Shown here piece after piece: positions 39,049 to 63,352 of a DNA stretch of 64,000 nucleotides (its first letter is position 1; every line of letters starts with the position of its first letter). The notes beneath the pieces are model-generated. The model saw only the letters and a list, made by a program, of their open reading frames with translations. It did not search any database and was not told where the DNA came from. The DNA is from Sphagnum magellanicum (taxonomy: Eukaryota > Streptophyta > Sphagnopsida > Sphagnales > Sphagnaceae). The stretch lies in NCBI GenBank assembly GCA_021904315.1, contig CM038912.1:20037501-20101500 (forward strand), written 5' to 3'. The position numbers were made by a program, and so were the translations under genes.

Positions 39049-43242
<4,194 letters not shown>

Positions 43243-54162: not shown

Positions 54163-55644
54163 TTAAACTCTATCATGTGACTCGACAATCTGCTCTGGTT
54201 GATTAACATCGCTATCTTCATCAAACCCTGCTTCATTAATCTTCATCAATTCCAACAGCTCTTCGATGTCTTCCAACATTGCTGTAGCATATTCTTCACT
54301 GCTTTCGTCATCAATATGAACAAATTCTTCCAATTCTGATTGGTTGATCGATAAATTTAAGCTTTCGATGGTTTGGGCTAACTCAGTGGCAATGACGTTA
54401 TTTTCGCTCTCAGCCCCTGGTTCCGGTTCCAAGTTCATGAGCTCCGCCTTACTGAATGCATTTTTTATAGAGCTTGATGAGACGGAATCCCAAGCTTCTT
54501 TTACATAGCTTGCGACATCCAGTAGGTGCGCTGGATTTCCGTAGGAAACTCCTGCCGCACCTCGTCGTAATTGTTTTCCCAATTTTCTTTTCCGTTGCTT
54601 TAACTGCTCGTCAAGCTCATAAAAGTCGAGGATATCCTTGAGATATAAATATTTGTATCGTTTCTTGAGAGCGGCGATGATTCCCATATCACAAAGCTGT
54701 TTCCAATTGGTACAATTCGGAGGAAAGAATACTACGCGGATGTTGTCGCGTTCAAAGGCGTCAAAGTGTCCCAGCGCATTATCCATCAATAAGAGAACGG
54801 GACGTCTTGTTCATCTTTTGACTTTTGGAACAAAGACTTTGTTGAACCATTTCCAGCAGGTTTCCACGTCCATCCATGTTTTCGCTTGATTGAAATAAGG
54901 AACTGGCCAGTGTCGGTCTTTAATACACGCTGGCTCTTTCGGCTTTCCAATCATTACACAAGGAATTTTATGTGTTCCAGATGCGTTGGCGTAAACTATC
55001 AAAGAAACACGATCTTTCACTTTCTTTTTGCCTCTAGTGCTTGAAATGTCCTCATTCGGCATCAGAATGGAATATTTGGGAAGCAAATGGAAAAACAATC
55101 CAGTCTCGTCCATGTTGTAGACGTTCTCAGGGTCGTATTGAGCGATGTTAGAATATAATTCTTCTAACGCTGATAATAATTATGGGTCATTTTTGTCAAC
55201 CTCACCTCCTTCTCCATGAAGAAGCATTTTCTGTAGCCCTCGGTGTGTCCTGAAATGACTAAACCATTGCCATGAAACCTTAAAGTCTGAATCGGAAATG
55301 GATAATGTAGAAGCAATATTTTTCGCTTTCGCAATGGCGAGAGATGGCGGTACAGGGAGCCTAACACGGCGCATGCTGTCAATCCAAATGTACAACATAT
55401 CTTCAAGTTTGGTAAATCATCCAACTGAAGCTCTGAAGGTCTTCTGCTTAGCTTCTTCGAAGAGTAAAGTGAATCGTTCAAGAATTGAATCTTGTTTCTC
55501 CCAGACCTTCCGGATAGCGCCTTCGTTAACATCGTACTCATGCGCTAAAGCGCGTTTGCTTGGAGGGTTCGTCTTGTTCAGTTTTGAGATGATCTCACAG
55601 CACTGGGACTCATTCAAGCACTCGCCGATCAATTTCTTCGACAT
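54163..55644 (-). pseudogene. pogo/Tigger transposase (CENP-B HTH + DDE_1), three stops
   Basis: Cut-and-paste transposase inserting at TA. Start chosen at MSKKLIGECL (55644); an upstream ATG at 55707 would read through the subterminal repeats. One minus frame spans the protein, about 494 residues. First comes a CENP-B-type N-terminal HTH (REYDV-like AHEYDVNEGAIRKVWEKQD). Then the second HTH (LYIWIDSMRR, LPVPPSLAIAKAKNIAS), VYNMDETGLFFHLLPK (first Asp), LLMDNALGHFDAF (second Asp) and CDMGIIAALKKRYKYL (third Asp, 30 residues between). The C-terminal tail is acidic. Stops interrupt the frame at 55417-55419 (TGA), 55180-55182 (TAA) and 54811-54813 (TGA); near the first stop a different frame reads more naturally, hinting at paired small indels. 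The catalytic triad is otherwise visible. Confidence 0.9.
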
Positions 55645-60178: not shown

Positions 60179-60845
60179 TAAAAATGAAATGAGATGGAAT
60201 TTTTTTTACAAAACCTACATGCATCTTGTTACATATGCCTTAATTACCTCCAAATCAACTATAGGTGTCAATTTGTGCCTCCCAGTGTGGCACATCATGA
60301 ACATCTCTTTGCCTATGTAACTAGGATTGCCCAACAAGTATTCCAAATACTTGTTGATGTGCACAAAATACTAACACCAATTTTTGTGAATGTTAGATTG
60401 GTGCAAACTACTAGCATCATGGTATGATCTTGAATACTTGATGTCCAAATATATGAACTCAGAATGGTCCATCACTATGTTGTTAATGTAATTTATTTTT
60501 TCGCACATTAAACCAACTCTAATGGGTAGGATTGTTTTACGACGTACAAATTTTGATTAATATTCCATCAATAAATTCAATGTAGCCTTGGAATTGTGAA
60601 AGTGGTGTTGCCAACACGCATCACTTCTCGCCAATGAGCCATCAAATATCATTAACAATGATGAAATTGATGCAAGATGCAATAAATATGTCAATATCAT
60701 TTATTGCAATCTTGCTCCAATCCCACAAAAGACATCATGTTCAGTAACATTATTATGATTCATGTATAGGATGAAACTAAGCCAGTTTTGTTTTGAGAAC
60801 AATTTAAACAGTTGCCCAGAAATGTGATGCATCTCATCTGTTGTT
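60179..60845. other. Intergenic, nothing recognised
   Basis: A 77-codon plus frame (60194-60427) without recognisable domain; otherwise AT-rich. Confidence 0.45.
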
Positions 60846-61140
60846 GGGGGGGGGGGAGGCGGGGAAGGGGAGATCCAAACCCACTCTGTGACCCCCAAAA
60901 GAAAATTCTGATGAAACCCCCAACCCAACCCCACTGCCCACCCATCCTGAAACAATAAAATAAAACAAAGGACCCACCCAAAACCCCTCACCCACCAATC
61001 CAAAATCCCTTAAAACCCCTCAGCCACCCATCATGAAAAATAAAATAAAAGGACCCACCCAAACCCCCTCACCCACCAATCCAGAATCCCCAAAAAAAAA
61101 AAAAAAAAAAAAAAACCTCTAGTAACCCACCCCAACCCAC
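60846..61140. repeat. G-run plus C-rich tandem repeats and poly(A)
   Basis: An 11-G run at 60846-60856 followed by AGGCGGGGAAGGGG gives a quadruplex-capable plus strand. It is followed by CCCACCC-rich DNA, a tandem duplication with a period of about 88 bp (60937 and 61025; shared GGACCCACCCAAA and CTCACCCACCAATCCA), and A24 at 61092-61115. The minus strand is quadruplex-capable through repeated GGGTGGGT. Open frames here are low-complexity artefacts. Confidence 0.75.
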
Positions 61141-61358
61141 CCACTCTCAAGAAAAAACAAAATCTCTCCCTGAAATGCATGAAATTGTAAATTTAGGAGT
61201 TTTGTAAAATTAGTCATGAATTTTTGAAAACTAGTGGTAGCCTAACCGAATTCCGACCATAGGATACTTTGTGAAAAGTGCTTTCGGCGTGCAAAGTTCT
61301 TGTTGTCAAGATATTAATATGGATAGACAATGCTATTTACAAAGTTTTGACACATGTG
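61141..61358. other. Spacer before the hairpin pair
   Basis: No gene or repeat recognised. Confidence 0.5.
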
Positions 61359-61575
61359 ACAAAAGTGAAGAATAAGCATTTGTTAAATGCCTTTTTGCTA
61401 GACATCTCATTTCACCCTTGACCTCATCCACAAGCATGTGATAAAGAGATGTCTAACAAAAAGGCATTTAACAAATGCTTATTCTTCACTTTTGTTTTCA
61501 CTCCCTACAAATTTATCATTTCACTCTTCACCTCATTCACAAGCATGTGATAAATAACTTTGTAGGGAGTGAAAA
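61359..61575. repeat. Two consecutive stem-loops sharing a loop sequence
   Basis: Stem-loop 1: arms 61359-61408 and 61446-61495 (50 bp, one mismatch), loop 61409-61445. Stem-loop 2: arms 61495-61511 and 61559-61575 (17 bp perfect, extendable through a bulge by TTTATC/GATAAA), loop 61512-61558. The loops are near-identical over 37 bp (ATTTCACCCTTGACCTCATC or ATTTCACTCTTCACCTCATT, then CACAAGCATGTGATAAA; three differences), while the stems are unrelated. Confidence 0.85.
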
Positions 61576-63352
61576 GTTGGTATGAATCGATGCAACTTGT
61601 CTTTCGATTGAATCCAACCTTTACACCATCTTCATAACAAACATCAATATGCTATGAAAGATGCATACAATACATACAAAACAAGGGGTGTGTCCCACTG
61701 TGGCCTTGCAATTTACATCATAAAGTATCTTTGAACAAAAGAAGAATTATGAAATTTTGAATATTTCACCATGCAAAAATATAGTCTTCAAAAAAATCCT
61801 TTAAAACAAACCAAAATCCTTCAAGATATGTTAACTCTATAACTAATCTCAAGTTTCAACACAAGCCAAAATATCATCTTTTAAGAATCCCCATATAAAA
61901 ATAGACCTACTACCAAGGGGCCAAAATCCATTTAGCTACTGTACTCTATAATGAATCTAAACACATCTTTTGCCTTGTTAGGCAAGGCCAATAAATTCCA
62001 TAACTATCCTACTAAATACAAATAAGTTGGTCTTTATGAAATCTATCATTGACCTAGTTAGTGGAGAAAGTTGTGCTTAAGTGACAATAAACCATGATAA
62101 TAAATTGCATACCATTTTCCCTCCTCTACAAAATGGTGATAGGAGACAACATTAGTTCAGGATTTTAGGTAGGACAATGATATTGGGTGCCTGTACCATA
62201 GTTGACTAAATAATGCAAAGCCCACAATTCCAATGTCAAAAACAACTGTGGCATCAAAAGAAATATACATCTTTGTCCATTAAATGTATATCTCCACAAG
62301 CTCACAAACAAGCAAGGAAAGTCACCCTACTAATCTTGATGCAATCCTAATGGATCTGGTCAAAATTGCTGACTGCTTGCATGCAATATCCTCCAAAGCT
62401 TCACATACAAGAAAACAAAATTGCAAAAGTGAGTTTTGTTGATGACCCTTTTGCATATCCCCCTGCCTGGCACACAAGAAATGAAAAAAAAAGCCAATGA
62501 GATTATGATCAAAAAAAGACATCAGACTCCAAGACCAGATCAGTCCACAGATACATCCACCCAAACATATCAAGGAGCTACCTGATAGACGCAGGAGATT
62601 GAGGCTACCATGAAATAACATTGCATGTGTCCATCCTTTTGGTTAAGTCACTGTAGCAATTGCTGCAAATCACCCTCTCATAATCCCCCGAGCTCATTTC
62701 ACTTGAACCTTAGTATGGACAGAGATGTCGGTGAATCAGTGGATGAGAGCCAGCCATAGCCCTGTGGGCATTCTTCAGATGTCAGATTCTCTGAACCCAC
62801 ATGTGCATCTGCTGAACCAAAAATCAGAATGCTGCCAAAAGTACTTGATTTCCAGGTACTACATTTCCATGCAATTCAAGGTATATCAGGTGCTCCTTTT
62901 GAGGACTGAAGGCCAAGAGGAAATGCACATATAAATGGTGAAAGAAAGCATTAGCAACAGAATAGTGTTGTTTTAAAGCTGTTCATAAGACTGGACACAT
63001 GCAAAGGTCCAGTGACAGAAACCAGATGTGGCAGTGACATGGTTTCCCAAAACTACATGCCTGAAAACGTGGTTAGAATCAAAACCTGAAGTGTCCACCC
63101 AGTTTTTTTGGGTACATTGGGACAACATGACATTGCAAGTTGGCAATTCACTACCCATTTTCTGCAATCTCAGAAGAGGAACAAGAGAAGATGGGTCTGC
63201 TTGTGCAGGAGTTTTGCAACTACAAGATCCTTCCTTTGGCTTGGAAGCACCACCAAGTCTAACTCTGAAAGTGTGCCCATAACTTGTAAGATTGAAGAGG
63301 GCCCATAACTCAGAAGCCAAAACAAGCATCAAATGCTTGACAAAGATTTTGC
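61576..63352. other. 3' flank / probable 3' UTR of the epimerase gene
   Basis: No second gene recognised. The portion nearest 63352 is expected to hold the epimerase 3' UTR (minus strand). I did not find an unambiguous polyadenylation signal. Frames at 62322-62621 and 63028-63282 lack known domains. Confidence 0.4.

Follow-up and report, generated by a model that had tools for sequence, protein, structure and literature searches.

How can two adjacent hairpins have almost the same loop and entirely different stems? This question is raised by a locus of the moss Sphagnum magellanicum, at positions 61359-61575 of a stretch of 64,000 nucleotides that was analysed as a whole and is called the window here (assembly GCA_021904315.1, contig CM038912.1, 20,037,501 to 20,101,500, forward strand). 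Sequence self-comparison confirmed that the two stem-loops are real, and the whole 217-bp segment was found identical in the genome assembly at C6:20098859-20099075. The segment reads A-L-A'-B'-L-B, and is composed of the following pieces, in which the relatives are other copies of the repeat that hosts the hairpins:

61359 to 61408, plus strand: A, the left arm of hairpin 1 and the original, pre-event flank to the left of the loop, with collinear homologues in the C2, C4 and C3 copies
61409 to 61445, plus strand: L1, the first copy of the 37-bp loop, identical to L2 at 34 of 37 positions, with a single L in the readable relatives
61446 to 61495, minus strand: A', an inverted copy of A (49/50) that forms the right arm of hairpin 1, new DNA
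61495 to 61517, minus strand: B', new DNA that copies B in inverted orientation and forms the left arm of hairpin 2; 17 bp of it pair exactly with B
61518 to 61554, plus strand: L2, the second, direct copy of the loop, which together with 61446-61517 makes up 109 extra bp
61555 to 61575, plus strand: B, the right arm of hairpin 2 and the original right-hand flank of the loop; the copies collinear with it are C2, C4, C3, the first C7 and the second C6

The 50-bp arms of hairpin 1 are matched at 49 of 50 positions and hairpin 2 has 17 exact pairs, while the stems of the two are unrelated to each other, so that the initial annotation, which had described twin hairpins with a near-identical loop, was accurate on this point. 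Untrimmed, the arms of hairpin 1 span 61359-61411 and 61443-61495 (53 nt, 96% complementary), those of hairpin 2 span 61495-61516 and 61554-61575 (22 nt, 95% complementary), and the direct loop repeat spans 61407-61445 and 61516-61554 (39 nt, 92%). The exact stretch of B' (61495-61511) corresponds to B at 61555-61575 and lacks a 4-base piece of it (TAAC), and the last few bases of B' run into the right end of the loop; the automatic alignment of B' (22/29) includes these loop bases and the 4-base gap and thus understates the 17-bp exact match. Base 61495, a T, can be assigned to either A' or B' and constitutes a 1-bp microhomology at their join. A and B are each present once in direct and once in inverted orientation, whereas L is present twice, both times direct; the 109 bp that the window has in excess of the A-L-B order of its relatives therefore amount to one more A-L-B unit in which A and B are inverted and L is not.

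The longest exact arm in the 64-kb window, counted by a script that allowed up to 140 bases between seeds, was 39 bp, against a maximum of 14 in 20 order-1 Markov simulations of 64 kb analysed in the same way. Twelve inverted-repeat pairs with arms of at least 18 bp, no more than 400 apart, were listed for the window, and the two hairpins are the only neighbours among them to share a loop.

The hairpins lie within a copy of a dispersed repeat, into which a second, abundant repeat was inserted outside the hairpins:

61179 to 62200, plus strand: copy of the host repeat, old, low-copy and dispersed, with collinear segments in other copies and a provisional 5' limit in the window
61682 to 61995, no strand given: abundant repeat of about 315 bp, with at least 39 other matches

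A search of the genome (438,994,042 bases in 31 contigs) found related copies of the host repeat at no fewer than 11 other places, namely C2 (two), C3, C4, C6 (second place), C7 (two), C14, C16 (two) and C1. The 3' ends agree in four copies (the window, C2, C4 and the first C7 copy), and at several copy ends there is an inverted terminal motif that resembles TAAGG..AGGCACCCAAAA and has TA at its edge. On these sequence features the host repeat may perhaps be a non-autonomous terminal-inverted-repeat element, a class that stays tentative because the end motif of the C4 copy, searched as a pattern across the genome with three mismatches allowed, had no match beyond the C4 copy itself. The other matches of the repeat of about 315 bp, at least 39 in number, are 86-89% identical (2724 candidates at first look). 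It is missing from the C2 copy at the corresponding place, and another copy of it separates A from L in the C4 relative. We also observed that a G-run and a C/A-rich low-complexity tract (60845-61120) lie immediately 5' of the host repeat copy, that the pair of C7 relatives is found within longer duplicated blocks (89-94% over most of 10 kb) and that the C16/C1 pair is found within another (97% over 2.5 kb). Elsewhere in the window, an open frame at 42046-43242 presumably resembles part of a plant WRKY factor, and a Pfam search of it gave no match; an open frame on the minus strand at 54163-54810 has a DDE_1 endonuclease domain (PF03184, E 2.5e-12) and is a piece of a transposase.

The C2 copy has A, L and B contiguous and once each, the C4 copy has A and L-B separated by the 315-bp repeat, and the C3 copy has roughly 80-95 bp at that place. 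L also adjoins B in the first C7 copy and in the second C6 copy; B is cut short in the second C7 copy. More distantly related copies (second C2, C14, both C16 and C1) are uninformative on order because L or B could not be read confidently in them. Slices of the 11 other copies contained no arm-like inverted repeat and no repeated loop above the cut-offs used; self-palindromes of 14-18 bp occur in 5 of the 11, and a single 37-bp direct repeat (81%) lies outside the loop in the C2 slice. A' matches A of the C2 relative in inverted orientation (85% over query positions 89-136) and has no inverted counterpart in the relatives. The alignment of the window with C2 shows one large gap at the hairpins, broken by a few chance-aligned bases, and removing either 109-bp version raised its score from 214.6 to 226.6 or 227.4. 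Since the relatives have A-L-B without hairpins, the inverted arms A' and B' are new DNA, and before the event the locus would have read A-L-B, as the readable relatives do.

These data bear on several of the earlier proposals. A plain tandem duplication does not give the pattern, as had been argued, and the phrase that the loop was "used twice as a turnaround" describes the locus well, since each stem holds an inverted copy made around the same loop. Joint travel of the loop with one fixed stem, the outcome set against these proposals, gave a mixed picture: elsewhere the loop does travel with A to the left and B to the right of it, but no hairpins are formed there. The initial annotation had also considered a mobile core of 37 bp that generates inverted flanks, and the same loop with different stems speaks for it. 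A 35-place pattern of the loop, searched with up to three mismatches in the 439 Mb, nevertheless gave two matches, both at this locus, and the relatives carry L within a longer collinear repeat, so that we give this explanation practically no weight.

The event is younger than the repeat in which it happened. Inside the window, 4 of 104 sites differ between paired copies, a count in which B/B' contributes 0 differences over 17 ungapped bases and from which the indel and the mixed bases at the loop edge are excluded. The window without the 109 bp (L1 kept) differs from C2 at 74 of 317 sites (Fisher p = 1.7e-6 against 4/104); with L2 kept in place of L1 there are 70 mismatches and 239 identities. 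The difference between 4/104 and 74/317 indicates that the twin structure is a later, local rearrangement. A structure that was ancestral and lost elsewhere was rejected, as it would need one or more losses in addition to conversion that kept the arms and loops nearly identical (4/104) while the copies diverged by about 23%. According to part of a published analysis, the younger Ks peak is at 0.406 and a whole-genome duplication is dated to 102-122 Ma (PMC9946827); assuming that the two correspond, the event may very roughly date to 11 million years ago, the range being about 3-28. The substitutions and the 4-base indel between the arms and loops also speak against an assembly artefact, either a fold-back read or a misjoin, given that a fold-back at the level of the read would leave near-identical copies; the probability of such an artefact appears negligible.

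What kind of event could turn A-L-B into A-L-A'-B'-L-B? The reading we prefer, to which we give an even chance, is that the twin hairpins are the scar of a local rearrangement in one old repeat copy, produced by a staggered break and a double foldback, rather than a mobile or designed unit. It starts from what is observed, the order and orientation of the pieces, their order in the relatives, the relative youth of the event and the lack of further loop copies in the search with three mismatches. A staggered double-strand break would have spanned L, so that both ends carried it. Each 3' end would then have turned back onto its own strand to copy the adjacent flank, the left end giving A' (about 50 nt) and the right end giving B' (about 22 nt), and the extended tails would have been joined A' to B' with an overlap of 1 bp. 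The loops would be alike because of the shared overhang, and the stems unrelated because each end copied its own flank. What we infer is the breakage itself and its stagger, along with the polymerase and the pathway of joining.

Several features of the locus are consistent with the double foldback. The inserted DNA is an inverted copy of the sequence directly beside the presumed break (49/50 for A', 17 exact bases for B'). Together the pieces cover the old A-L-B interval end to end, overlapping by about 7 bp, and such tiling is expected if both ends shared one break. The 1-bp microhomology at the A'/B' join is within the 0-5 bp range of foldback insertions in yeast, and the B'/L2 edge has an overlap of TCA; the L1/A' edge has no exact microhomology. 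A possible pairing that could prime the foldback exists at both ends (4 bp, GTGA/TCAC), and 1193 of 5000 random 37-mers from the window had an equal or better one. As evidence, a foldback-priming dyad was tested and is not exceptional in the window copy; of the window copy and the C2 relative, only the latter has a perfect 9-bp dyad in its L. That dyad (TTATCACAT / ATGTGATAA), located in the loop of the C2 relative (L005, about 2920-2950), survives in the window copy in degraded form. The priming helix is absent from the best folds of both presumed ends, and at the right end the 3' tail is paired with the outer portion of B'. The break model is further weakened by the length of A', by the need for two foldbacks at one break, and by the fact that no intermediate or allele was seen.

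The initial annotation was correct that simple duplication does not suffice, but it missed that A-L-A'-B'-L-B also results if the 109-bp A-L-B unit is duplicated in tandem and the middle B-A segment (72 bp) is then inverted. The product is identical to that of the double foldback, and only an intermediate would separate the two. The loop-to-loop spacing of 109 and the inverted middle, which corresponds to the place where two units would meet, agree with this route; the tiling is equally expected from it, and all three copy pairs would date the duplication, with divergences (1/67 in the arms, 3/37 in the loop) that do not differ significantly over these few sites (p = 0.13). It needs two events within one 100 bp, no (A-L-B)x2 intermediate is present in the 11 relatives examined, and about 7 bp (TGATAAA) are retained at both ends of the inversion, which is not a clean swap. 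We consider duplication and inversion unlikely, though a real competitor.

Serial template switching by one polymerase during replication would require three switches, from L to A', from A' to B' and from B' to L. Short-range switching makes hairpins and is catalogued in other genomes, according to portions of two reports (PMC8794818; PMC7954356), and short overlaps occur here at two of the three junctions (1 bp at A'/B', TCA at B'/L2). However, jumps made at random would be expected to leave the source with gaps or large overlaps, and the pieces tile A-L-B almost end to end; a similar tiling argument appears, in the part of that report consulted, for insertion chains in human cell clones (PMC12807874). 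A single four-point switch cannot yield A'B' from A-L-B because A and B were non-contiguous on the old template, with L between them as in the relatives. It was rejected, since the inverted fragment was not contiguous in the ancestor, and would fit only if a tandem duplicate had come first. Serial switching is in our opinion improbable.

Could the hairpins be a functional, selected unit, such as a young hairpin small-RNA locus? RNA folding predicts a strong hairpin 1 (-79.6 kcal/mol) and gives -29.0 kcal/mol for hairpin 2. Twelve of the 14 Rfam matches over 60500-62700 are to microRNA models, with E-values down to 5.1e-10, and 21 nt of arm 1 match the C2 relative at all but one position, a possible target and the best among the 11 relatives scanned. 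Inverted duplication is a proposed source of plant microRNA genes, as stated in a portion of the literature on the subject (PMC3237417). On the other side, all 14 matches are below the gathering score, and they span many unrelated families on both strands, which indicates that the signal is that of a generic hairpin; an origin from copied repeat DNA needs no selection. A known RNA family or plant MIRNA was rejected on the same curated cut-off, and a functional unit seems very improbable.

Twin hairpins of this sort are ordinary in kind and unusually readable in form. Small complex rearrangements are often hard to reconstruct, whereas this locus is fully legible: every piece and junction can be read because relatives in the same genome keep the pre-event order. 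The double foldback suggests a wider proposition, which we hold tentatively and with less than even confidence, that one staggered break can be repaired by foldback at both ends, giving a pair of neighbouring hairpins whose stems are unrelated and whose common loop records the overhang in its length. If this holds generally, double-ended foldback repair could be read in genomes from twin hairpins that share a loop, and hairpin RNAs could originate in pairs in one step. If such twin hairpins recur, they would show how two long hairpins can arise together in one event, and genome-wide counts could tell double-ended break repair from serial template switching.

Our search of the literature, mostly outside subscription journals, recognised no description of adjacent hairpins that share a duplicated loop. 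Judging from parts of three reports, each step of the break model appears to have laboratory precedent (PMC11724301; PMC11292364; PMC8355091). The small inverted triplication, as far as it is described in the part consulted, also has a short inverted piece between direct copies, a spacer of about 30 bp and the ability to form a hairpin, but the piece that is inverted there adds a third copy to the two direct ones on either side of it (PMC13334657). At our locus A, L and B occur twice each and L is never inverted, so the copy number and orientation of the pieces rule this class out. Template-switch hairpin mutations, in a portion of the work on them, resemble the twin hairpins in that inverted copying of nearby sequence creates the new stems (PMC8794818). 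Breaks with complementary 3' overhangs result in small tandem duplications, down to 43 in the study concerned, which resemble the direct duplication of a few tens of bp seen for L (PMC8355091, in part); here, however, 72 bp of inverted flank copies separate the duplicated pieces.

Polymerase theta extends stem-loops from two terminal base pairs, and the excerpt describing this has in common with our model the self-primed copying of a strand's own sequence followed by joining; the inverted insertions in mammalian cells cited there are 3-30 bp (PMC11292364). Foldback insertions at double-strand breaks share with the locus an inverted copy beside the presumed break end, capture with low microhomology and, putatively, short imperfect inverted priming. 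In the yeast example given in the section consulted, break ends fold back through a 10-bp imperfect inverted microhomology with a 41-nt loop and are joined with 0-5 bp of microhomology (PMC11724301). Compared with most yeast foldbacks, which by the same partial account are about 5-34 bp, A' is longer at 50 nt, and in contrast to them both ends apparently folded here and the loop was duplicated.
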